Source: a virus
Direction: 5' to 3' (one strand)
Virus record (IMG/VR): IMGVR_UViG_3300037264_000803
Coordinates: 1-38,044 of that record
DNA length: 38,044 nt
Below are positions 7,249-29,563 of the stretch, piece after piece. A model generated the notes under the pieces. It saw only the letters and a program-made list of their open reading frames with translations. It was not told the DNA's origin and did no database searches. Each line of letters begins with the position of its first letter. Position 1 is the stretch's first letter. Made by a program: the position numbers and the translations under genes.

Positions 7249-7503
7249 ATGCCGCAGATATACTTCCCGACGAAACCAAACATGGAAGTCGTTGAAAGTT
7301 CGATTCGTGACTTGTCAATCAAAACAAGAAAGGAACATGACGCTGCAATTGAAGACCTTAAGTGGGGTAGATGGAATGCGGCTTACTCTAAGATAGAGAG
7401 CATGGAAGAGTCCCTTTACCATTTGAGAGTACTGCTGAATCAAGTTGCTTTTTACTATCCATCATCTAACGATGAGCCAAAGAGGAGAGATGAAAATGTC
7501 TAA
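7249..7503 (+). CDS. Hypothetical protein, 84 aa
   Basis: AGAGGA lies 4-5 bases before the ATG at 7249. The in-frame GTG at 7222 falls within the leader hairpin and is rejected as start. The product is helical ('EHDAAIEDLKWGRWNAAYSKIESMEESLYHLRVLL'), probably a small coiled coil. It is the first gene after the promoter and overlaps the annealing-protein gene by 8 bases, so it may be an accessory to recombination. That is inference. Confidence 0.65.
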   Translation: MPQIYFPTKPNMEVVESSIRDLSIKTRKEHDAAIEDLKWGRWNAAYSKIESMEESLYHLRVLLNQVAFYYPSSNDEPKRRDENV

Positions 7504-8626
7504 TGAAATCACCCCAGCGCCTGAAGTAACTGATAAGAATCTTTCTCATGACACAAAGAATCTTATCCACGCCAATGCGACAACGATCAACACGGAGCAG
7601 TACGTTAATGCCAGCCTCGCGCCATTCAAACCCGAGGTGCAATCAATCCTCAGCGAGAAGATTGATCCTGCGCTAGTAGAAATCAAGCCTCACAATGGCA
7701 TAGTATTTCTACCCGGATCGTTTTACCGTGGGCGTTTGATCAAGGCATTCGGTGCTGGCGGTTGGAGTATGGTGCCAAGGGGACCACGCTCAATGCGCGA
7801 CTCAAAGATGTTCAGGGAGTATGCGCTGTTCGCCCTTGGTCAGTTCGTCGCGGAAGCAGTTGGGGAACAGGAATGGATTGAGTCGAACCGCGAGATGTCA
7901 GAGGCTGATGCAGCGGAAGGATGCAAGACCAATGCGATCCAGCGCTGCTGTAAGGATCTTGGCATTGGCATTGAGCTATGGGAACCCGCCTTCATCAACC
8001 TCTGGAAGAAGAATCACGCCATTCAAATCTGGGTTGAGAATCAGCAGACCCACGCAAAGAAGCTGTACTGGCGACGGAAGGACAGGCCAGCATACAACGC
8101 CTTCCCATGGGTTGAGACTGGGATTCATGAGGAACCGCCGATGCCTCGCCGGAAGTCTGAGTCACAAGGTGTGACGATTGCTCCAGCTGCAGCTAAAGTG
8201 GTGATCCCTGAGCCTGAGAGCAGGACAATCCCATCTTCCGATAAGCCAATAACGCAGGTGGAGGCTGAGAAGTTGCATGTTACGCCTGACGAAACAAGAA
8301 CAGAAGTAGCCTTTGACGACCCTCAGAATAGAGGGCATAAAGTCTACGAGCCGGTGAAGAAGGATGATGTCGAAGCTGCCTTTGGTAAAGTGATTGGCCT
8401 GAATTCAAAAGAAGGATCTAATGCAAGGGGGCCATGGACTCTCCATGGCGTTCATTTCAAACCTGAAGATGGCGCTCCGTTCTGGATGAATACATTCTCA
8501 AAGACAGTTGGCGCTAAGGCTGCTAAGTTTAGAGAGTTGCAGAGCAGGGTGTATGCCCAGTACAAGAAAGCAGCAAGAGGCATCGAGCTTATTGATATCG
8601 ATGACTCAGATGACATCCCATTCTAA
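7496..8626 (+). CDS. Mgm101/Rad52-type single-strand annealing protein with SSB-like C-terminus, 376 aa
   Basis: Residues ~60-235 carry the Mgm101 signature: GAGGWSMVPRGP (86-97), REYALFALGQFVAE (107-120), EGCKTNAIQRCCKDLGI (141-157), ELWEP and YWRRKD. Mgm101 belongs to the Rad52 superfamily and anneals complementary single strands, which in phages drives recombination and repair. After a low-complexity linker, residues ~285-365 ('GPWTLHGVHF...FWMNTFSKTVGAKAAKF') look like an OB-fold. The protein ends IDIDDSDDIPF, very close to the acidic tip of bacterial SSB. This would be an annealing protein with a built-in SSB-like tail. The start at 7496 follows AGGAG by 8 bases. Partners are the nuclease at 8601 and the resolvase at 9194. 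Confidence 0.88.
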   Translation: MSNEITPAPEVTDKNLSHDTKNLIHANATTINTEQYVNASLAPFKPEVQSILSEKIDPALVEIKPHNGIVFLPGSFYRGRLIKAFGAGGWSMVPRGPRSMRDSKMFREYALFALGQFVAEAVGEQEWIESNREMSEADAAEGCKTNAIQRCCKDLGIGIELWEPAFINLWKKNHAIQIWVENQQTHAKKLYWRRKDRPAYNAFPWVETGIHEEPPMPRRKSESQGVTIAPAAAKVVIPEPESRTIPSSDKPITQVEAEKLHVTPDETRTEVAFDDPQNRGHKVYEPVKKDDVEAAFGKVIGLNSKEGSNARGPWTLHGVHFKPEDGAPFWMNTFSKTVGAKAAKFRELQSRVYAQYKKAARGIELIDIDDSDDIPF

Positions 8627-9197
8627 TCTTAAGTTCGACCCTATAGATCATTGCTATTACCTTAACGATGAAAGGATACCCGGTATAAGCAAGATCCTTG
8701 CAGCTGGTGGGCTGACTGGGAAGATGCCTTATAACCCAGCCGCCATGAATAAAGGTATTAGGATTCATAAGGGGATTGAGTATTTACTTGGCGGTGATCT
8801 TGATTTTCTTACGGTAATACCTGAAGATCTAATCTATCTAAAGGAAGCTGAGCAAGCCGTTAACTACCTCAAGCTTCAAATCTCAGGACTTGAGATGCTG
8901 GTATGCAATGAGACAAAGAAATACGCAACGCAGATCGATGTTGTTGCAGTATGGGAAGGACAATCAACTGTAATCAACTGGAAGACTGGGAGAAAGTACA
9001 GTTGGCATGGCCCACAAACTGCAGGAGAAGCGGGGTGTTTTACTGTGCCTATGCGCAGGCTTGCCATCTATCTGTCTGGTAAAGGAGAGTGGACTTATAA
9101 AGAATACACTGAGCAGAGCGATTTGGATATGTTTGATGAGTGCCTGAAAAAGTTCGATGAGAATGAGAGGAAGCAATATGCTACGGGGGAAAAATGA
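8601..9197 (+). CDS. RecB/Cas4-like PD-(D/E)XK nuclease, 198 aa
   Basis: The layout fits phage exonucleases of the PD-(D/E)XK superfamily: 'KGIRIHKGIEYLL' (helix motif I), then QIDVVAVWEGQSTVINWKTG, where D of QIDVV and K of NWKTG fit motifs II and III, then a Gln/Tyr-containing helix. The usual acidic residue before 'xKTG' is Asn here, so catalysis may use a shifted acid or be weakened. It should resect ends to give single strands for the annealing protein encoded immediately upstream. The gene overlaps the end of the annealing-protein gene; ATG at 8601 or 8610 are both possible, and neither has a strong ribosome site. Confidence 0.75.
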   Translation: MTQMTSHSNLKFDPIDHCYYLNDERIPGISKILAAGGLTGKMPYNPAAMNKGIRIHKGIEYLLGGDLDFLTVIPEDLIYLKEAEQAVNYLKLQISGLEMLVCNETKKYATQIDVVAVWEGQSTVINWKTGRKYSWHGPQTAGEAGCFTVPMRRLAIYLSGKGEWTYKEYTEQSDLDMFDECLKKFDENERKQYATGEK

Positions 9198-9538
9198 AAT
9201 GGCAATTCACTTTCCCAGACATAGTTCCCTATGTAAGAACTACCCAGAGACAGAAGTTTGTAGATCCAAGATACCAGCGGTACGCCGAATGGAAGAAAAG
9301 TATAAGACTCGTCGCTAATACCGCTGGCGTTCCTGCCGAGTTAGATAAAGAGAATATCTATGGCGTTCAAGTCATCGTCAAGTGGAAGAACAAGGCTAGG
9401 GCTGACTTGGATAATGCAGGGATTAAGAATGTTCTCGATGCGCTGTGGCCTCAGGATCGGTCTATTGTTGCTATCGTGGCAACAACGAAGCTTGAGCATG
9501 GCTCAGACGAGCTTGATATTTCCATCAGTAAACTGTGA
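9194..9538 (+). CDS. rusA: RusA-family Holliday junction resolvase, 114 aa
   Basis: The segment KARADLDNAGIKNVLDALW (residues 67-85) followed by QDRSIVAI is the hallmark of RusA. Asp71, Asp73 and Asp88 fit the catalytic acidic residues of E. coli RusA. The family cuts four-way DNA junctions as a dimer in the cytoplasm, resolving recombination or replication intermediates before packaging. The length of 114 residues is typical. The ATGA overlap with the nuclease gene indicates coupled translation. Confidence 0.88.
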   Translation: MKWQFTFPDIVPYVRTTQRQKFVDPRYQRYAEWKKSIRLVANTAGVPAELDKENIYGVQVIVKWKNKARADLDNAGIKNVLDALWPQDRSIVAIVATTKLEHGSDELDISISKL

Positions 9539-17705: not shown

Positions 17706-20700
17706 CTATTTACCAGAAGTATAACCGACAACATCTCTCACAAGACCTTCGCCAAGTACCTGCGAGCCAGAGGTTTCACCCTTCGCCTTATTAATCACAT
17801 ACCCTATCGGACGGCTGATAGCGTCGAAAGGAATGCCAGTCAAGATTGTAAGTGCTGTAGCTGAATCGCCAACAGCTGTCTTAGTAAACTCACCGGTCTT
17901 GACGAACTCTTTAAGATCATCCGGCAATCTGCCAAATTTCTCAAGGACACTAAGAACCGGCGAGATAGACATTTTATCATTATATCTATCGCTGTCGAAC
18001 CTGTTAATAGCTATTGATAAGGCAAGCCCGCCCATCGGGAGTGACGCAACTGGATACTGAAGTTGACTAAAGAATAGAGCATCTAGAGCAACATCAGTTA
18101 AGTCATCATCATCATCTGGCTTACCGGAAGCTAATAGGTACAAACTCTTACCGATAATGGCTGGAATAGCCAAGTTCATTAGATAGATGAACAGCAATCT
18201 AGCCGGGACTCCAATGCCATTAAAGTCTCTAAAAGCATTCCTAGCTTCAGTTACACCAAGGTTAAGCTGTGTATTCCAGAACGTACTGAACATTACAAGC
18301 AGCCTAGCCCATGCTGGCCCTGCTTCATATTGAGAGAGATCCTCAGCAAAACTAGATCCCTGCGTCTGCCTGACGACAGAATCAGCCTCTCTCATAGCCG
18401 CTATATCATCAAAGCCCTTATCTAGAGCCTGATCTCTCGCAGCATTCCATACAACAACGTCGATCTGGTTCTGAGCAAGGTGCTGCAGAATGTATGTATG
18501 CCTTTCGAACCAAGAATCTATCTTTCCAAGCTGGTTAGTCTCAAGAAGCAGGTTGTCAATTGCTCCATATGTATTGGCCATCTCGTTAGTGAGACGGTTG
18601 AACATCAAGGTGGAGAGCTTAGCTTGGTCGAACAACATCTTAGGATTAGTCACAAGGGCGTATGTAGTTCTAAAAAGATACTTTGGCGATACCTTTGAGG
18701 CTGCAGCTGTAACAGAAGAGAATTGCTGGACAGCGTTAACCACGTTCATGAACATTAAACCTAGACCAGTGCGCTTCCTAAGAATCCTCATTATACTGTC
18801 AGCCTTACGGTTCTTAGATGGCTGCATTATCAGCTGCTGAACGCTGCGCTTAAGCCAAGGGATAAGGAACTTATCCACTGCCATTGGGTCATAGCCTTCG
18901 ATAAGCGCTCTTGACCGCTCATCGTTGATGATCTTCATAACATCATTCGCTGGATTCGCCATATATGTGAATCTTAGAACACGGTCGAATCCAGTAAGAA
19001 TGGTTGATCTGATATCCCACATGATTGGCATACTTGACTTCTCAGATCGCTCCTTTGCCATCGATGACGCTGGAGTAGGCCAGAGATCGTCAAAGCCACG
19101 CCCTTCTATATCAAGCACCGCTTCCTTGGCTGCAAGCTCCTGATTCTGAGAGAACCTGTCTGGAGTAATGGGGTAGTACCCACCTTTTGACATGCCGAAC
19201 GGCGTCCTGTACGGCTTAAACTTTAGAGGGGCGAAGTAATGTCCGTATCTATCCCTATATGCTTGCTGGAAAATAGGCAGGTAAAACTCGTATTTATCAT
19301 GGATCTTCGTAACAAGATCCTGCATTTCCTTAGTCCAGACACCCTCCCTAGCTACGCGATCCATGAATGCGAAGAGTTTCGAATCATCTACCAGCCCAGT
19401 CTTCTTCCCATCCTCATCTAAGATCTCTTCACCTGCGTTGTAGCCCAACCGGTTGAGGCTTCTTACGATCCTCTGCCTTCCAGACTCACTTCCCATGTGA
19501 AGCGCGAATCCAATGAGATCAAACGCACCATTACCAAATGTGTAATTCTTCTTCTCAACACCATCGAATTCATTTGCGATGATCGCTGAAGCATCCAGCT
19601 TATTCTTAAGAGGTAGGGATGCCTCAACAATAAACTTCTCAACATCAGACTTAGCATGCCTTAGCAAGTTGGCGGCATTTGATATTGGATCGAATATCAG
19701 CCTTCTGAAGCGCGAGCTGATAGCCTCAGCCCAATGCTCCACCCTTCTGAAGTAGGCTTTAATGGCCTTGAAGTAGGACCATTCGATATCCTTCTGTGAA
19801 GCTGAGCCCTCTTTACCAATAGCCTTATTCGGGAACTTTGCGAAATCTGGCTTGAGTTGATTCTCGATGATATCTTCGATCTTCTTCTCGCCCTCAAGTG
19901 TCGCAACCTTACCAGCATCAATCGCCATTTGCTTTAATGTTTCAAGCTGCTCAAACAGATCATAGATATTGCCTACAGTTTCCCCGCGAATCGCTGGCTT
20001 ATCTTTCTGGGCTATCTTCTGGGCTTGAGCAGCATTATTCTTAATGGCCGAGAGTTGATCTTGGATCTGACTGTAGAACGATGGATCTACCTCTGAAATA
20101 AGACGTATAGCTTTGTCTGGATCTATCTTGGAATCTTCAGTAAGCCCATATGCGTTCATCAATGCTTTTGCAGCATAGATAAAGTTCATCCCATTCTTGC
20201 CGTATATCTCAGCTGCGGCCTTCTCGTTCCTGAAGATCTTCTTAAACTTAACTACAGTCTTTCGATAGTTTTCCTTGAATACAGATGCAAGCCTGATCCT
20301 TTCCGTGTAGGAGATCCGTAGCTCCTGCATCTCGATAGCCATATCCCAGTCACCCTTGATAAGCGCCCTATTCATCTTGTTGGTGGCGAGAGTAAGAGCG
20401 GCCTTCCATGAGCGAATCTCAATGCTACTGAAACGTGTCTTACGGATAGCATTATCAGCTTCATTGGACAGAGCTTCAACGCGGTTGAACTTAGTGACGT
20501 TAATCCCAAGCCTTCGTTGTACTTCAGCCCTCTTCTTAAGCATGAAGTTAAGCTCGATAGTCATCATCTGCGTACGGTCGAGCTTATCGATAGCTTCCTG
20601 AACCTTCTCCCTGAGAGCCTTCTGTAGATTAACGTCAGCCATAGGGTCAGCTATCATCTGCATCTGACGCTCTACGAGAGCATCGATGAATTGCGCCCTA

Positions 20701-23700
20701 CGCCTTTTGAAGACTTCCGTAGATTCCTTAGAAAGGATGCGATTTCTATACTTAAGCGTCTTAATCTCGTTCTTATCAAGCCTGATCTCATTCGTCCATC
20801 CCTGATATTCAGGCGTTTCAGCGATGCGCTTTTCAGCTGCGAGATATTCCTCTCTAGCCTTCTCCTTTTGAGCTTCAGCTTCTTTGTTGCTAATCTTAGC
20901 ATCGACTTGCTGAACGTTGATTGCCCTAACCTTTCTATCTAGGATCTCTCTGAATTTTAGCGTAGTTCTATTCTGCTTCTGCTGAAGTGAAGCTATATCC
21001 TCAGACAACTCTTTTATCCTTAGCTGCCTACGCGCTTCAATAGCATCTCCACCATTCGGGTCTACAGCTTGAATGGTTGAGTTTAGATCGCTTTCAGCCT
21101 CAACCAATGCATTAAGCATTTCGGTTCCACTATGGAATCCGAATAGAGCGGCCATCTCATTAGGTGAGATGCCCCCCTTGCTCACAGCTGTCCTAGGTGG
21201 AAGGATATCCTTAAACTTTGGGAAGTGCCTATTAACCACTTGCCTAGACAGCTTAAGGATAGGCCCTACAAATGGAGCCCCATCGGTATCAGTCTCAGAT
21301 TGAAGGAAAGCGAGAAGCCTATGACCTCTATCAAGCCTAACCTCCCGCTCAACGCGCAACCTGATCTTATTCGATAGCTCACTTTTCTTCTTGAGAGACT
21401 CGGCAATCAGCTGGCTCTCAACAGTCTTACTGATCTCCATGTGAATTCCATGGCGACCATCATTGCGAAGCACCATGTGCCTGACGGCATCGGCATCAGT
21501 CATGCCGATTCTCTTAGCGTCTTGGAAGAATGAGATAGAGTCTTGATTCTCCATCATTCTCTCTATCTCATCGGTTGTGGCGAACATCCTGCTTATGACG
21601 CTTCTAATATCTGGAGTCAGCGGCACAAGCTGGTCTGTAGTTTTATAGATCTGCTTGATTCTATTTGCAATTCGGATGAATACACCAAGAAGGCCAAGCG
21701 ATGGGAACTTACCCTTGAAGGCTACCTCTCCCGCTCCCGTTGGTTCCGCAACGACAGCACCCTCTAGGAAATAAGCCTCCATTGCCTTGGCCCACTTCTC
21801 ATGCAATGGGCGGCGCTCCTCGAAATCCATTCCAGCCCATACCACCCTATCAACGCCAAGAAACTTAAAGATCAGATCGACATCAGCCTTCAACTCATCG
21901 CTGCTCTCTTCCCTGTTGGAGAGGTCAATCATGATATCCAAGGCGAAGTGGCCGAAGATCTCATGAATTACCGTAGACGCATTCGCCTTCCCAGCCATGA
22001 GAGCGACAACGCCTGAGTTGCCCTCCCTCCAATAAGCACCGCGCCTAGACCGTGATGGATTCTTAGGGATGATAGAGTCGTCGGTATTCTGCCATAGTCC
22101 GCTATCTTCTATCTCTTCAGAGATAGCTTGCTCAAGCACATCGCCAACCTTGTCTGGATCAGGATTAATATCCTTCCCTGTGGTTATAGCGTCATTTGCC
22201 AACTCCTCAGGGGTCTTTTCTGCACCAGCAGTCTGCTTCTCAAGCGCAGTAATGTCTTCTTCAACCTTCCCAAGCTGAGAAGTTAAGAGGATATTCTTTC
22301 TCCTCTGCTCCGCAGCCTCCAGAGATTCCATCATCCTCTCTTCAAGAGCTTTGGATATATCTGAGTATTTCTTTGGAATCTTGATCGGCTGGTTATCCTC
22401 AAAGAGCATCACACGGTACATTTTATTTTCAGTCTTGAACGTCCCGTCTTTATTCTTTCCACGAATAACCAGACCATCATGCCCGACAGCCTTCACACGC
22501 TCAATCCAAGCCGCAATCTTGTTTGCTGCAGTTTCCTTCCTAGTCTCCTTTAGGAAGGCGTCTAGAGTGTCGAAGTATACCGGGTTCTTAACTGAGAGAA
22601 ACGCAGAATGCAATTTACTCTGCCTCTCCTTATAGACCTCCCACCTCAGCCTTGAATTCGGAAAATCTTCATACCATTTCCAGTTACTGAGTAGCTCGAT
22701 CTTCCTTTTGTAATCAGCTTTCTCGATTGTTGCAGGGCCAAACCTTTCCCTTAGCTCCTTCTGCTGTGCAGCAAATCCTTCATCATCTGGATAAAGAACC
22801 TTATCCCCATACTTACTACCCTCAGGAATCGTAGTCCCGGTTATCTTCCACCACGGGATTCCAAGGGCCTCGTTGATCTCCCTTTCCTGCTCCTCGAATC
22901 CCTCTTCACCCGGCCTGAGAATTGGAATATCCTCAAGTTCGTCGCTGGCAAGATCTGGATGTTCAGCTTCAAAAGCGGCTAATTGCTTTGATGGAGTGGC
23001 GTTTTTTAGATCCTCTCTGGATTGGATAAACAAATAGAACGGGCTTCTTACCTGATCCTCGAATATCCTTCTCCTCTCAGCCTTCCACTCTTCATTCTCA
23101 GCGGTCGCCTTATCAGACAGAATAGTACCTTCCGCTGTCTGCTCTATCTTAAGTAAGGAGTTGCTCTTTCTGGCAGACTTAACCCTATTTGTAGGTATAA
23201 CCTCAAGCCGCCACATGGGAGTTGGAACGCTATTCTGGTTGGTTATCTTGGTACCAGCCAACTTCGGTCGAATATCCTTTCGTCTGAAGTATGAATAAGA
23301 CTTCCTATGGATAAGCTTTCCAATCTGGTTCCACACGGTTTTATTAAGGACAACACCGGCAAACGCTCTCGCCTCAACCCCAGATTCGCTCATGTCCTTT
23401 GATATAGAAGCCTGAAACTTCCTAAGGATAGCATCTCGTTTCGCTGGATTTTCCGCAGTCTCAAGCTCTAAGAGATCCATCATCAGATCTCGCTGCCCTT
23501 TTCTGACGAATTCATCCAATTTGATGAATTGATCCTGAGTGAGCTTTTGCCGCTGCCACAATTCGTAGATGGACTGCGTGTTTAGCGAGAGAAGTAACGC
23601 GCTAGCCTCTTCAGGTGGAAGATCCTCCCACTCAAGGTACTCACCAAGAACGCTATCGTCAGGATCTTCTTCGATCTCTGATGTCTGCTCGTAGAACTTA

Positions 23701-26700
23701 CTAAGGCGGAAATCGTAGTTGCCGCTGTTTGAGATAGCGCTCTTTAATTGACCTTGATGAAGGACTATGAATGATTCAGCAGCCTGCGGATACTGATCCT
23801 TAAACTCTTTGTCAGTCAAGCTGTCGATATAGGAGGGTGACAATTTTTTAGTTTGTGGGATTTCGAATCTATTAAGATAGACGATGCTATCGTAGCCCTT
23901 CTCCATCAGAAGGCCAGCGACATAGCGCGAGTAGAGGACATTGAAATCCTTCTGCCTAGTCCTGATAAAGAGATCCCTATCCTCATTGAATTCAGCTGGG
24001 ATTTTGCTAGTGATCGCTGCTTGAACCATTGCGTCAAGAACTTTACTGTAGCGATCAAACTCGACAGCTTCTGAATGCGTGATTACTTTAGCGTTTTCCA
24101 GCTGAATTAAGAACGCTGGGCCATACCAGCTGCCACGATCTTCTAGTCGAAGTGGTTTTCTGATCCTGACCCAGAACGGATATGTACTATGCCCATGCTC
24201 TGATGGGATTTCAGACCGCACAGCAGCTGACTCTGCAGACGTAGACACATGTAACCCAAGCGTAGTTTTACCAAAGTCAATCTCCTCAAACTTCTCCCCA
24301 GTGCGAGAAACGTGATACACGATCTCCTGATGCACTGAGTCTTTAACGAATCTAAATAGCGCCTCAGGAGAGAGATCATTTCTATGATCATTAATTGCAA
24401 GACCCTGCTCCTGCAATTCCTTAACCGTTTGAATTCTAAGTGCGAACCACTCAGCCACCTCTTCAGGGGAAATGTTGGCTTTGACGGCTAAGCCAAAGGC
24501 GAATCTTTTGAAAGCCTTACCGACATCTTCAGCAATCGCTATGATATCTTCATGTGGTTGAAACGGGGCTAACTTGCTCTCCTTCAACATCTTTACGATG
24601 TTCTTTGTCGCCTCGTTTACCCTAGCCCTTAGTTCACCAACCGTGATGGCAACCCTCTCCCTCTTCTTCGGCGCGGGACTCTGGACTGAAACTGTCCTTC
24701 CTGCATCCGAAGCTTCTGCGGCGGTAGCCCTAGTCGGGATCTGCGGTGTAGGCGCAGGCGCATCCAATTGAGCTAGAGGATTTGGCGGTGGTATTGGAGT
24801 AGGAAGTGGGTGGACAACTGCGCCCGGCTCTTGAGTTGGCGGTACTTGAGCGGGCGCAACGTTGGAAGCGGCTGGAGCCTTCTCAGGTTCCTGCTCTACT
24901 TGCTCCTCATCCTCATCAACATACAACTCAATGATCTGATCATCGGTCATCTCATCGAGTTCTACTTGCTGAGCCTGCGCCTTTAGAAAGTCATCAGCCC
25001 TCCTGCTGATGATCTTGGCACGAAACTCACTTTCCTTTACGGTAAGGTCATTCTCAGGATCGAACTTATAGATGGCTGAGAAGTATGTATTAGATTTATC
25101 GTTCTTTGCTATATGTTCCGTGTAGCCCTTGATTGGAATTGCAATGTATTCGCTAGGCTTGGCTACATTATATGCAGTTACATCACCGCCTACTTGCCTG
25201 TAGAATTCCCTTGGATCTACCTGACTGCCATTCTCATCCTGTGACTCTGAGTAATGGGCTAGCCACTGTTCTTTTGTAACGTATATCTTATCCCGAGCGC
25301 CAGAGAACTGCTCAACCATCTGCCCAAGAGAATTTGGAGACAACTTGCCTACGGTGGTATTATTTACAGCCTCCCCAAGTCCCTTAAGCGCGGACTCTCT
25401 TTTCTTAGAATCAATAACCTTTGCTGCCGCATCCTTCTTGAGGGCTGAGAAATGGTCCTTATTTGAGACTGACCCATCACCACTAATCAACCCAGCCCCA
25501 AGTCTAAGGAGGGAAGGCGCTCCTAAGACAAGAAGATCGGTGAAAAACTGCTGAGTTGTCGGAACCCTGTAAGGTTCGTACCCGCTTACTGCGTTGAACA
25601 GCTTTTCAACTTCATTCTCGTACAATTCTGCAGGGAGAGACTGTATAGCGGCCCGCTCCAAGTAATCAGTTACCTTATTCCCAAATCCAACCCTTCCAAT
25701 CTTAGACCAGACCTTCATCATCGGGATCATCGGCTTGAAGGCTGAAGCCATAACCGCCAGCGATGCTCCACTTCTCTCAGCTAGATTCCCAGTGAATTGA
25801 TTCAGCATGGCGTAGTACGCTGAGTCGTCTGGATTTGAGAACCTAGCTGAATTCGGAACGGTAGAATACGAGAAAGACCCATCCTCCTGTAGGATTACCG
25901 TTGTAGCTGGGGTCATATCGCGGTAATACTGACCAACGTGTGACGCTACCTGAATAGTAGGAGTTAGAGCGCTGGCTATAGCGGTCGAACCCATTCTAGC
26001 TAGGTTATTTCTCACCTTGGCGCTAGCTATTTCATTAATGATCGGAAGTGCTGTTCCAGCTCTCCCAAGAGTGTAAGATGAGCGCAGCACACCAAGAGTA
26101 GAGGCTTTGACAGCCGAGTACCAGCCAGCAGTCATCGCAAACTCTAGCCCATATGGGACTAGGTTTAGAATCCCATCAACAACATCGGCTCCCATGGTTG
26201 TTCCACCACGAAGCGAATGGACTTCTCCTAAGCGTTCGTAGTTGTTGATTAGCAGCTTCTGCTTAGCTGTAGCCGTATTCGACTGTATAGCAATAGCGGC
26301 GTCATACAAAGCAGATGCTGTAGCCGCCGGGATGATTCCATTTATAAATGGAAGTAGCCTGAAGATATTTTCAGAGAATTTATCAGCGGTATTCTCTACT
26401 AATCCGATCTTCCCAAGTTTAGTAAGGTTGTCTTCGAATTTCCTTTGTGTCTTAAGAAGTTCTCCAGCTAAAGTATCTCGACGCCTCTCATCTTCTTTAG
26501 ATATCTGTCCAACAAAGTTGACGCCGAATACATCCTCCGTCGCTAGATCAATTGAGTCTTTAACTAGAGCTTCAGTCGTTCTAGGCCAGAGAGACGGTGG
26601 CCTGTCAAAAATTACCTCAAGCTTCTTCAGCTTGGATAGCTCCTCTACCGGAACCATCGCAGCTAAGTATCTGTCTCTGCTAAGTATGTCGTAAAGTAGA

Positions 26701-27143
26701 GGGTTTCCCTTCCTGAACTCAACGGGATCAATTGACGGGTTGTTGGCTACTTTCTCAAGCGCCTCTAGACTTCCACTAACAACGTCAGATGGAAGTCTTA
26801 ATACATTCTGAACGTGTTTAATTCTAGCTGCAGTAGCGGGTGGGATTGGTTTGCCATCTTGCATCCTAAGGATTGTCAGGCTATTAAACTGGGGTTGCCG
26901 CAACGCCTGACCAGCAGCGGCCCATTCGTCAAATGTCCCAACAGCCTGAGAGTCAGGTAGAACGGGGATAAGGGGAGGGGGCTTTGGTGGCTTTCCTATA
27001 CTTGGAAACTGCTCCTCAATAGTCTTTGGTGGATAGTAGCTATCGAGTGTTTCTTCGACCGCAGGTACTGCCAGTGGGACGTATGGCTTCTTCTCTTCTT
27101 CTTGAGACTCTTGGGAAGAAGGATCTCCGGGGACAATAGGCAT
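17706..27143 (-). CDS. Giant polyvalent internal virion/ejection protein, 3145 aa
   Basis: It occupies the slot of the T7 gp16-type ejection protein. Regions by pattern: Pro-rich N-terminus (1-70); helical hydrophobic segments (~250-580); a 'KIYVTKEQWLAHY...YIAIPIKGY' domain (~615-700); Pro/Ala linker (~745-815); ADP-ribosyltransferase-like domain (~940-1145, begins VYHVS, His944, ends FIVLHQGQLKSA); a second ART-like or LPD segment (~1480-1600, AVGHDGLVIRGK); a zincin-like segment with HEIFGH (1727-1732) and HEKWAKAMEAYFLEG (~1781-1795); long coiled coils (~2030-2350); and an LPD38-like C-terminus (~2640-3145). Such polyvalent proteins are injected with the DNA. The ATG at 27143 is preferred over the upstream TTG at 27155. 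No RNA polymerase motif was found. Confidence 0.85.
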   Translation of the reverse strand: MPIVPGDPSSQESQEEEKKPYVPLAVPAVEETLDSYYPPKTIEEQFPSIGKPPKPPPLIPVLPDSQAVGTFDEWAAAGQALRQPQFNSLTILRMQDGKPIPPATAARIKHVQNVLRLPSDVVSGSLEALEKVANNPSIDPVEFRKGNPLLYDILSRDRYLAAMVPVEELSKLKKLEVIFDRPPSLWPRTTEALVKDSIDLATEDVFGVNFVGQISKEDERRRDTLAGELLKTQRKFEDNLTKLGKIGLVENTADKFSENIFRLLPFINGIIPAATASALYDAAIAIQSNTATAKQKLLINNYERLGEVHSLRGGTTMGADVVDGILNLVPYGLEFAMTAGWYSAVKASTLGVLRSSYTLGRAGTALPIINEIASAKVRNNLARMGSTAIASALTPTIQVASHVGQYYRDMTPATTVILQEDGSFSYSTVPNSARFSNPDDSAYYAMLNQFTGNLAERSGASLAVMASAFKPMIPMMKVWSKIGRVGFGNKVTDYLERAAIQSLPAELYENEVEKLFNAVSGYEPYRVPTTQQFFTDLLVLGAPSLLRLGAGLISGDGSVSNKDHFSALKKDAAAKVIDSKKRESALKGLGEAVNNTTVGKLSPNSLGQMVEQFSGARDKIYVTKEQWLAHYSESQDENGSQVDPREFYRQVGGDVTAYNVAKPSEYIAIPIKGYTEHIAKNDKSNTYFSAIYKFDPENDLTVKESEFRAKIISRRADDFLKAQAQQVELDEMTDDQIIELYVDEDEEQVEQEPEKAPAASNVAPAQVPPTQEPGAVVHPLPTPIPPPNPLAQLDAPAPTPQIPTRATAAEASDAGRTVSVQSPAPKKRERVAITVGELRARVNEATKNIVKMLKESKLAPFQPHEDIIAIAEDVGKAFKRFAFGLAVKANISPEEVAEWFALRIQTVKELQEQGLAINDHRNDLSPEALFRFVKDSVHQEIVYHVSRTGEKFEEIDFGKTTLGLHVSTSAESAAVRSEIPSEHGHSTYPFWVRIRKPLRLEDRGSWYGPAFLIQLENAKVITHSEAVEFDRYSKVLDAMVQAAITSKIPAEFNEDRDLFIRTRQKDFNVLYSRYVAGLLMEKGYDSIVYLNRFEIPQTKKLSPSYIDSLTDKEFKDQYPQAAESFIVLHQGQLKSAISNSGNYDFRLSKFYEQTSEIEEDPDDSVLGEYLEWEDLPPEEASALLLSLNTQSIYELWQRQKLTQDQFIKLDEFVRKGQRDLMMDLLELETAENPAKRDAILRKFQASISKDMSESGVEARAFAGVVLNKTVWNQIGKLIHRKSYSYFRRKDIRPKLAGTKITNQNSVPTPMWRLEVIPTNRVKSARKSNSLLKIEQTAEGTILSDKATAENEEWKAERRRIFEDQVRSPFYLFIQSREDLKNATPSKQLAAFEAEHPDLASDELEDIPILRPGEEGFEEQEREINEALGIPWWKITGTTIPEGSKYGDKVLYPDDEGFAAQQKELRERFGPATIEKADYKRKIELLSNWKWYEDFPNSRLRWEVYKERQSKLHSAFLSVKNPVYFDTLDAFLKETRKETAANKIAAWIERVKAVGHDGLVIRGKNKDGTFKTENKMYRVMLFEDNQPIKIPKKYSDISKALEERMMESLEAAEQRRKNILLTSQLGKVEEDITALEKQTAGAEKTPEELANDAITTGKDINPDPDKVGDVLEQAISEEIEDSGLWQNTDDSIIPKNPSRSRRGAYWREGNSGVVALMAGKANASTVIHEIFGHFALDIMIDLSNREESSDELKADVDLIFKFLGVDRVVWAGMDFEERRPLHEKWAKAMEAYFLEGAVVAEPTGAGEVAFKGKFPSLGLLGVFIRIANRIKQIYKTTDQLVPLTPDIRSVISRMFATTDEIERMMENQDSISFFQDAKRIGMTDADAVRHMVLRNDGRHGIHMEISKTVESQLIAESLKKKSELSNKIRLRVEREVRLDRGHRLLAFLQSETDTDGAPFVGPILKLSRQVVNRHFPKFKDILPPRTAVSKGGISPNEMAALFGFHSGTEMLNALVEAESDLNSTIQAVDPNGGDAIEARRQLRIKELSEDIASLQQKQNRTTLKFREILDRKVRAINVQQVDAKISNKEAEAQKEKAREEYLAAEKRIAETPEYQGWTNEIRLDKNEIKTLKYRNRILSKESTEVFKRRRAQFIDALVERQMQMIADPMADVNLQKALREKVQEAIDKLDRTQMMTIELNFMLKKRAEVQRRLGINVTKFNRVEALSNEADNAIRKTRFSSIEIRSWKAALTLATNKMNRALIKGDWDMAIEMQELRISYTERIRLASVFKENYRKTVVKFKKIFRNEKAAAEIYGKNGMNFIYAAKALMNAYGLTEDSKIDPDKAIRLISEVDPSFYSQIQDQLSAIKNNAAQAQKIAQKDKPAIRGETVGNIYDLFEQLETLKQMAIDAGKVATLEGEKKIEDIIENQLKPDFAKFPNKAIGKEGSASQKDIEWSYFKAIKAYFRRVEHWAEAISSRFRRLIFDPISNAANLLRHAKSDVEKFIVEASLPLKNKLDASAIIANEFDGVEKKNYTFGNGAFDLIGFALHMGSESGRQRIVRSLNRLGYNAGEEILDEDGKKTGLVDDSKLFAFMDRVAREGVWTKEMQDLVTKIHDKYEFYLPIFQQAYRDRYGHYFAPLKFKPYRTPFGMSKGGYYPITPDRFSQNQELAAKEAVLDIEGRGFDDLWPTPASSMAKERSEKSSMPIMWDIRSTILTGFDRVLRFTYMANPANDVMKIINDERSRALIEGYDPMAVDKFLIPWLKRSVQQLIMQPSKNRKADSIMRILRKRTGLGLMFMNVVNAVQQFSSVTAAASKVSPKYLFRTTYALVTNPKMLFDQAKLSTLMFNRLTNEMANTYGAIDNLLLETNQLGKIDSWFERHTYILQHLAQNQIDVVVWNAARDQALDKGFDDIAAMREADSVVRQTQGSSFAEDLSQYEAGPAWARLLVMFSTFWNTQLNLGVTEARNAFRDFNGIGVPARLLFIYLMNLAIPAIIGKSLYLLASGKPDDDDDLTDVALDALFFSQLQYPVASLPMGGLALSIAINRFDSDRYNDKMSISPVLSVLEKFGRLPDDLKEFVKTGEFTKTAVGDSATALTILTGIPFDAISRPIGYVINKAKGETSGSQVLGEGLVRDVVGYTSGK

Positions 27144-27145
27144 CT

Positions 27146-29563
27146 CTAATCCCAATCCGAAATTTCATTCATTATACGAAAATCAAGCCGCATTCTCTCT
27201 TCCCTCATCTCTGGCGTCATGTTTTCTACGTTAGTTTCAGGCATCAACAACCTCATGGTGTGAATCCACCCTACTCTTTGAGGGGTAATGCTAGCTGTGG
27301 CGTTATAACTTCTAATAGTGGCTTCTATGCTGCTCCTCTCTTTTAGCGGCAGAGCTAAAGCGAAAGCAGGATCAACATTATCTACCGATAGATTAAAATC
27401 ATTTATACTCAGCAGTTTAGGTTTAGAATACTTTTCTCTGATCTTTTCGTATGCACCCTGCCTGAACTGTAAGTACAGCTCATCCTTTAACTTTACATAC
27501 TTCTCGCTAATGAGATCAGGGCGTATCTCCCTAACGTAATACTCTACCTCTAGCTTTTTATATAACGCTACATTTTGCTTCACATTAAATGTATTAAATC
27601 CTTGACTATTAATATATTTCTCGAAATTGTTCTGCCACTGTTGAGATCTATATTCAGGGGTCTTTATCATCTGCTTAAAAAGACTAGACTCTTCGCCATA
27701 TGATAAATTTAATGATCCAGTATTTAATAAGGCTAAAGCCTCAATCTTCGCTCTGTCTTCAGCAGCTTTAGAAGCATCTCTCTGCTCCATTCTTTCAGCT
27801 GATCTCTGCTCAGCCTTATACTCTGGGTCATTCAATCGAGCGTATTGGAGATGCCTTTCTATAGTAGCTGCATATGAAGAGATTACATTTCCAACAGCTT
27901 CCCCTTCATCAGTTCTCTGAGCCGTCTTATGTAATCTCCACTCGTAAAAAATCTCATCTGGAGAAGCCTTGGGATTCTTTCTAGCAAAATCTTCAGCCCA
28001 CTGCATGTATGAAGTGTGAGCTAAAGTGACGGCGTTCCAAGTAGTAGAGTTGGCCCTATCCTTTTTGAGATTCCCTTTTGTGAAGTATTCATTCTTCCCA
28101 TCGCTGAACCGATTGTACATGTCTTCAACGGTTATAGCTCCAGCCCTAACCCTTCCCTCTTTGAGTATAGCTGGAGCATCCTCAACATATTTCTTAAACC
28201 GCTTTGCATCATCTTCGCTCATATGCTGGTAATACATCACCTGCCAATCTTCAGGATTCATCAACCTTCTGGTTCGACGCTGTGGGTCTGAATAGTCATC
28301 AACCTCCATGCCAACAATCTGTTCTGGAGTAAGAGCCCACGCTTTGGTGTATACATCTGGACTGGTAAGCCTACCCTTTTCTGCGGCATCTACGGCTTGA
28401 GCGAATCTATGAGGCCCTAGCGCAGCCTTCACCCACGGCTCTACAGATTCAGGAGTTACTTTTCCTTGCAGGATAGACACTGTAACGTAGTTCTGAAGAG
28501 AGTTTTTTCCTTGGATCTCCATTCTTTGGAGAAGGTTTACATTACGATCAGCCTTATCTCTAGCCCGCTCCTTTACCGCTTCACTAAGGTTAGGAGATGA
28601 AGCAAGGTAACTCTCAAACTGAACCCTTGCAGCTTCGGCTAGTTCTGGATTCATACCCATCGGAATATGCCCGTCAGCTAACGCATTTCCGACGCGAATA
28701 GATGAGCCTTTATCCAGATGATCCTTAAGCTTAAAATACTCATCCCCTAGCTCGCCTTTGAACTTCTCAAGAAGCTTCATCGCGGTAATATCATCACCAC
28801 GCGCATTGGCGCTTTGAACAATCTCAGCAAACAATTTGCTATGATCTTGGGCTATAGTTTGCTTGATAGCGCTTTCCCTGTCATCTCCGGGCTGAATCTC
28901 ATCTGATAGGAAATCAACTGTGGTGCTGTCGTAGACATTAAGCTGGAAGTTGAATTCATTAGGGATTAGAAGGACGCTCTCCTCACCGGGCTTCCCTTCT
29001 ACGGTAGTAATATCAGCAGCCGCATGGAGCAGGGCCTTTCTTGTTTCAGCTTGCAATTCACCATATGTGCTAGCTCTTGACAGTGAAATCTGCTTATCTA
29101 CATGCGCGATAAATCTATCATTAAAGGCCGCTTCTCTATCATAGACATGCCCCGTAAAAGCATACTTCACATCTGGATCTGTTATGCTGTTAATGACATC
29201 CCGCATCTTAGCTTGATATTCTGTGGTCTTAGGTTTATAAGCCGCCCCAGCAGCTTTCCCCTTCAAGTCAACCACGCCATCAAGCTTACTTGTCGGATCT
29301 CCCCACCAGAATTGATCTTCGAATGTAGCCCAGTCACGCTTCTTCTCCATTAACAGCGTGTTTTTCGCCTTTCTCTTGGCGTCATCCTCCTGCTTAGCGA
29401 TGATACCTGCGCCTATCTCAGCTGTCTTTCCGAAAGCCTCATACACCCTTGCCGTAGACTCACCACCACCAAACGCTTCAAGAGATGGCCTGTCATTAAT
29501 GAAGGCTGATGGGGTCTCTCCGGGGAGAACCTTCCTACCGCTATACTCTGGAACGTTAGCCAT
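27146..29563 (-). CDS. Internal virion protein (gp15-like), 805 aa
   Basis: Large, mostly helical, highly charged protein between the gp14-like and giant ejection proteins, the position of T7 gp15. The N-terminus 'STARVYEAFGKTAEIGAGIIAKQEDDAKRKAKNTLLMEKKRDW' is typical of podovirus internal virion proteins. It has several Arg/Glu-rich coiled-coil segments (for example around EQRSAERMEQRDASKAAEDR). It would form part of the trans-periplasmic DNA ejection channel. It starts 2 bases after the upstream stop, with AAGGGA as ribosome site, and its stop precedes the giant gene's ATG by 2 bases. Confidence 0.8.
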   Translation of the reverse strand: MANVPEYSGRKVLPGETPSAFINDRPSLEAFGGGESTARVYEAFGKTAEIGAGIIAKQEDDAKRKAKNTLLMEKKRDWATFEDQFWWGDPTSKLDGVVDLKGKAAGAAYKPKTTEYQAKMRDVINSITDPDVKYAFTGHVYDREAAFNDRFIAHVDKQISLSRASTYGELQAETRKALLHAAADITTVEGKPGEESVLLIPNEFNFQLNVYDSTTVDFLSDEIQPGDDRESAIKQTIAQDHSKLFAEIVQSANARGDDITAMKLLEKFKGELGDEYFKLKDHLDKGSSIRVGNALADGHIPMGMNPELAEAARVQFESYLASSPNLSEAVKERARDKADRNVNLLQRMEIQGKNSLQNYVTVSILQGKVTPESVEPWVKAALGPHRFAQAVDAAEKGRLTSPDVYTKAWALTPEQIVGMEVDDYSDPQRRTRRLMNPEDWQVMYYQHMSEDDAKRFKKYVEDAPAILKEGRVRAGAITVEDMYNRFSDGKNEYFTKGNLKKDRANSTTWNAVTLAHTSYMQWAEDFARKNPKASPDEIFYEWRLHKTAQRTDEGEAVGNVISSYAATIERHLQYARLNDPEYKAEQRSAERMEQRDASKAAEDRAKIEALALLNTGSLNLSYGEESSLFKQMIKTPEYRSQQWQNNFEKYINSQGFNTFNVKQNVALYKKLEVEYYVREIRPDLISEKYVKLKDELYLQFRQGAYEKIREKYSKPKLLSINDFNLSVDNVDPAFALALPLKERSSIEATIRSYNATASITPQRVGWIHTMRLLMPETNVENMTPEMREERMRLDFRIMNEISDWD

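Follow-up and report, generated by a model that had tools for sequence, protein, structure and literature searches.

A phage protein of 376 residues carries in one chain an Mgm101-type annealing core, a C-terminal domain that is confidently predicted to be an OB barrel, and an acidic tip, DSDDIPF, of the type that ends bacterial SSB. As these parts usually lie in two genes, the protein looks like a merger of SSAP and SSB functions, coupled to an exonuclease gene. The sequence analyzed was IMG/VR record IMGVR_UViG_3300037264_000803, positions 1–38,044, and "the window" refers to this whole stretch of 38,044 nt.

The Annealing Gene and Its Neighbors

The following features, all on the plus strand, describe the annealing gene, the parts of its product, and the two genes downstream.

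7496..8626, + strand: gene of the Mgm101-type annealing protein, 376 aa (open reading frame and translation)
7592..8110, + strand: Mgm101/Rad52-type annealing core, residues 33–205 (PF06420; yeast Mgm101, 9yi6)
8111..8371, + strand: linker, residues 206–292, rich in Pro, Glu, Ser, and Thr (composition, poor conservation)
8372..8605, + strand: predicted OB-fold domain, residues 293–370 (AlphaFold2 model; Foldseek neighbors in PDB and BFVD)
8603..8623, + strand: SSB-type acidic tip DSDDIPF, residues 370–376 (sequence, pattern rarity)
8610..9197, + strand: exonuclease, PD-(D/E)XK-like, phrog_298 (E 8e-10), downstream of the annealing gene
9194..9538, + strand: RusA-like resolvase of the same recombination/replication cluster (phrog_6537, E 1.8e-13)

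The annealing gene starts at ATG 7496, 3' of the ribosome-binding-like sequence aagaggagag, and stops with TAA at 8624–8626. The Mgm101-like core that the first-pass annotation had read from the sequence was borne out by profile searches. Residues 33–205 belong to Pfam PF06420 (Mgm101p) at E 2.5e-52, with 177.3 bits against a curated cut-off of 27 and coverage of positions 3–169 of the 170 in the profile. Yeast Mgm101 (9yi6) is the sole significant PDB relative of the protein (E 1.9e-40). About 87 residues link the core to the OB domain, and their composition and poor conservation suggest that this linker is probably disordered.

Both candidate ATGs of the exonuclease gene, at 8601 and 8610, fall within tip codons, so that the annealing and exonuclease genes overlap by 17–26 nt. 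The exonuclease start constrains part of two tip codons and not the DDIPF-stop ending. The adjacent exonuclease gene expected of a two-part system of SSAP and exonuclease is therefore present, as the phrog_298 gene overlaps the annealing stop, and a phrog_298-type exonuclease also lies downstream of the annealing gene in five relatives (L003, L008, L013, L039, and L040). No SSB of the PF00436 type was recognizable in the window record or in the 12 related virus records searched. By its structural genes (14493–38015), the phage is close to podoviruses of the phiV10/epsilon15-like and Caulobacter Rauchvirus types, and the major head protein is 44–45% identical to those of phages of Proteobacteria. 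The recombination gene of phiV10 is instead a RecE-RecT fusion. The window also contains a very large open reading frame of 3149 aa on the minus strand (17706–27155).

The Predicted C-Terminal OB-Fold Domain

The region following the core had been described as patterned like an OB fold, and both structure prediction and Foldseek comparison return an OB fold for the window protein. With a three-row alignment, AlphaFold2 gave a mean pLDDT of 57.8, and the C-terminal strand order E-E-E-H-E-E was already present. A five-row alignment, whose rows were picked by the analyst for an OB-like pattern, gave a pLDDT of 90.8 for the C-terminal domain and a pTM of 0.78, with the order unchanged. The strands of this model (293–309, 312–323, 329–333, 351–359, and 362–370) and its helix (336–348) follow the OB order b1-b2-b3-a-b4-b5. 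Nearly all PDB neighbors that Foldseek gave for it are OB folds, with modest E-values (7e-4 at best); they include AB5 toxin B-subunits (neighbors in fold alone), the Ta0387 OB domain, RPA70, Streptomyces SsbB, Bacillus SsbA, a cold-shock domain, and LEF-3. The best structural match in the viral library BFVD spans the OB domain (TM 0.77). Residues 293–370 of the window protein are thus a well-supported OB barrel at the level of the model.

Sequence comparison did not tie this domain to known SSBs. Profile searches detected no homology of the OB domain to any SSB family, the PF00436 profile gave no match to it up to E 10, and the annealing protein matched neither phrog_112 nor PF10991 of the gp2.5-like families. 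Of the features that define a bacterial SSB, the protein thus has the OB fold (AlphaFold2, Foldseek) and the DDIPF tip, and lacks the PF00436 match. Leave-one-out profiles failed to recover the OB domain of the window protein and, likewise, those of L041, L003, L002, and L013. A single OB family across the relatives was therefore rejected as a claim. Given this failure, and given that the rows were chosen as OB-patterned, the fold has good support for the window protein, yet mutual homology among the OB domains is unsupported.

Three further candidates were rejected. Kinship with T1-like SSBs was suggested by a hit to L159 (E 1.2e-4) in a profile that contained the window protein; a profile of nine T1-like members scored the window OB domain at E 45 and aligned only a KEGSNARGPW-like stretch of b1-b2. 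Kinship with E. coli RadD had been prompted by a weak first model (Foldseek best E 0.04), but hhalign found no match and a small profile of the RadD C-terminus missed the window protein. WD-repeat and other short PDB matches were attributed to chance.

The Acidic Tip

The protein ends in DSDDIPF, as the first-pass annotation had pointed out in likening it to the DDDIPF of bacterial SSB, and an ending of this kind is unlikely to arise by chance. Given the phage's residue composition, a protein would end in [DE][DE][ILV]PF with a chance of ~6e-6 and in exactly DDIPF with a chance of 4e-7. The last five residues of the window protein, DDIPF, are the same as those of E. coli SSB. A DNA pattern that additionally allows Met as the third residue, [DE][DE][I/L/V/M]PF-stop, has one match in the 20 virus records carrying the Mgm101 family (~0.78 Mb), and this match is the stop of the window protein. 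In one bacterial genome of 1.5 Mb, the pattern again matches once, where the SSB gene ends, ~170 bases after an SSB-domain match on the same contig and strand. Model confidence is low at the tip itself, with a mean of 62 in the last block.

DDDIPF is a frequent ending of phage SSBs. Of 79 phage proteins that end in it, 22 match the SSB family PF00436. Matches among the rest include DUF669, additional SSB families of phages, gp2.5-like proteins, and DNA helicases, and one protein with this ending (L113) is probably a gp2.5-like member of an annealing family (phrog_112, PF10991). The tip is thus widely used by phages, and its presence on phage proteins other than SSB, L113 among them, is not new. 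DDDIPF is also found at the end of two phage helicases that are RadD-like by sequence (L064 and L084) and of five phage proteins of ~73–75 aa that are unlike SSB (L047, L056, L062, L082, and L110).

Relatives of the Window Protein

Scans of viral contigs found 20 relatives, 19 of them viral and one in a Candidatus Peribacteraceae MAG (L017). The latter is the sole bacterial relative found, with none in 286 other genomes of the phylum, and it may come from a prophage or a contig of a phage. Neither phages nor plasmids yielded a relative in searches by DNA, tblastn, and family, and none occurs among the 50,697 phage records of a cultured-phage collection. The cores of the relatives are mostly 32–55% identical, and the nearest relative is only 37% identical overall. 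Their C-termini, assigned to types by eye and without models, are OB-like in about five (L002, L003, L013, L041, and perhaps L040), helical in 13, and zinc-ribbon-like in two (L017 and L036). Rare phage Mgm101-type proteins thus use the three kinds of C-terminus interchangeably, as far as types assigned by eye can tell, and the fusion of OB and core is only partly a family trait. On the core tree, the OB label requires five changes, which is no improvement on shuffled labels, so that the domain looks repeatedly gained or lost, albeit at low support.

The tip ending is absent from all 20 relatives and so does not characterize the family as known. The anatomy proposed by the first-pass annotation, with annealing core, OB domain, and SSB tip in one chain, stands for the window protein (PF06420, OB model, and tip), whereas the expectation that the tip would be conserved in homologs failed. 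The complete chain of core, OB, and tip was absent from the 20 relatives and the 50,697 phage records, and no description of such a fusion was found in the literature searched, in keeping with the annotation, which knew of no such description.

Two relatives whose annealing proteins lack an OB domain have a small gene right after the Mgm101-type gene. Its product ends in NGDEPPF in one (L014, 4073–4513) and in PSDDVAF in the other (L038, 5101–5583). Neither small protein has a Pfam or PHROG match, and possibly both are partner SSBs. In a tree whose one eukaryotic sequence is mitochondrial Mgm101 of yeast, this sequence falls among the phage proteins, in a group with the window protein and L002 (support 84/90; 92/92 after L003 and L006 were added), which hints, from that single sequence, at a phage origin of the mitochondrial recombination protein.

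Proposed Mechanism and Alternatives

The reading that we favor, at about an even chance of being right, is that one chain merges the work of an annealing protein and its partner SSB and offers its tail to host SSB-docking proteins. The core would bind and anneal complementary single strands, probably as a ring or another kind of oligomer like that of Mgm101, and the overlapping downstream exonuclease would produce these strands. The flexible linker would carry the OB domain, which may add single-strand affinity or help to displace the SSB of the host. The DSDDIPF tail, left free, would be offered to host proteins that dock on SSB tails (e.g., RecO, PriA, Exo I, RecQ, primase, or Pol III chi), and the docked proteins may be either recruited to phage recombination intermediates or diverted from them. 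The core homology, the OB model, a tip beyond chance, the lack of a recognizable SSB gene in the window record and 12 related ones, and the overlap and recurrence of the exonuclease gene all count in favor of the merged chain. So do the row of three genes in T1-like phages described below, the small proteins of L014 and L038, the head-protein likeness to phages of Proteobacteria, and the DDDIPF ending of Pseudomonas and E. coli SSB. Against it count the absence of the tip from all 20 relatives (of which the nearest is only 37% identical), the lack of SSB homology in the OB domain, and the exonuclease starts held in the tip codons. The first-pass annotation had gone further in supposing that host SSB matching could be bypassed. 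A self-contained annealing platform that replaces host SSB at recombination intermediates and recruits SSB-docking enzymes directly would, having SSB parts of its own, depend less on a matching host SSB; we regard this extension as rather improbable. The window protein carries a tail rather than reading one, so recruitment of, or competition for, tail-binding proteins is the more direct prediction.

The tip may instead act within the molecule, covering the OB or core DNA-binding surface and being released when DNA binds, so as to tune affinity with no host recruitment; acidic tails cover the protein's own DNA-binding surface in SSB and in T7 gp2.5. The core and the OB domain are net basic (+3 each) against −3 for the tip, and binding of the SSB tail to its own site is cited in the literature (PMC5928155). 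General acidity would be enough for such a role, yet the exact DDIPF matches the docking motif, and we consider this explanation unlikely. The tip could also dock on a partner encoded by the phage, with the overlapping exonuclease as the simplest choice, and have little bearing on host proteins; the system would then be a two-part recombinase like Red beta and lambda exonuclease. The tip codons are shared with the start of the exonuclease gene, and such an exonuclease is found next to relatives as well, but those relatives keep the exonuclease without the tip, and the likeness to the host SSB tail is left unexplained; this possibility seems distinctly unlikely. The least probable account takes the OB domain for an accessory domain of an ordinary kind and the tip for a coincidence, partly shaped by the overlapping exonuclease start codon. 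The tip is indeed missing from all relatives, C-termini vary widely in the Mgm101-type family, and the overlap with the exonuclease gene contains an ATG. That overlap, however, dictates only xAT-Gxx and not DDIPF-stop, and such an ending arises by chance in only ~6e-6 of proteins.

The merged-chain reading bears on genome editing with phage annealing proteins, where the match with the tail of the host SSB is thought to be limiting. With core, OB, and SSB tail joined by nature in one chain, the window protein offers a ready test of whether dependence on this match can be removed.

Comparison With Known Systems

Yeast Mgm101 shares with the window protein a core of ~170 aa (47% identical in the aligned stretch), but its PDB chain of 256 aa stops soon after the core and has no OB domain or SSB tip. 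T7 gp2.5 holds an OB domain, an acidic tail, and annealing activity within one chain. The gp2.5-like proteins (phrog_112, PF10991) resemble the window protein in joining OB and acidic tail, and L113, a probable member, even ends in DDDIPF; in that group, however, annealing is done by the OB domain, and a Rad52/Mgm101 core is lacking. Red beta likewise bears an accessory C-terminal domain on its annealing core, but that domain, made of helices, binds to the tail of the host SSB, whereas the window protein carries such a tail.

In T1-like phages, exonuclease VIII, an annealing recombinase (Erf-like in PH1062), and an SSB ending in DDDIPF (FDDDIPF in T1-like SSBs) are encoded by three consecutive genes, and erf-ssb and rad52-ssb pairs were reported as common in a survey of Firmicutes (PMC8093625). 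These modules unite an annealing protein with a tip-bearing SSB, as the window protein does, but in two separate genes. SSAP portability is believed to go along with conservation of the SSB tail, and the SSBs of Pseudomonas and E. coli both end in DDDIPF (PMC10711431). Annealing by Sak4 of phage HK620 requires the six C-terminal residues of the cognate SSB, whose tail is NDYPPF; there, in contrast to the window protein, the tail sits on the SSB and is read by Sak4, which is RecA-like (PMC5928155).
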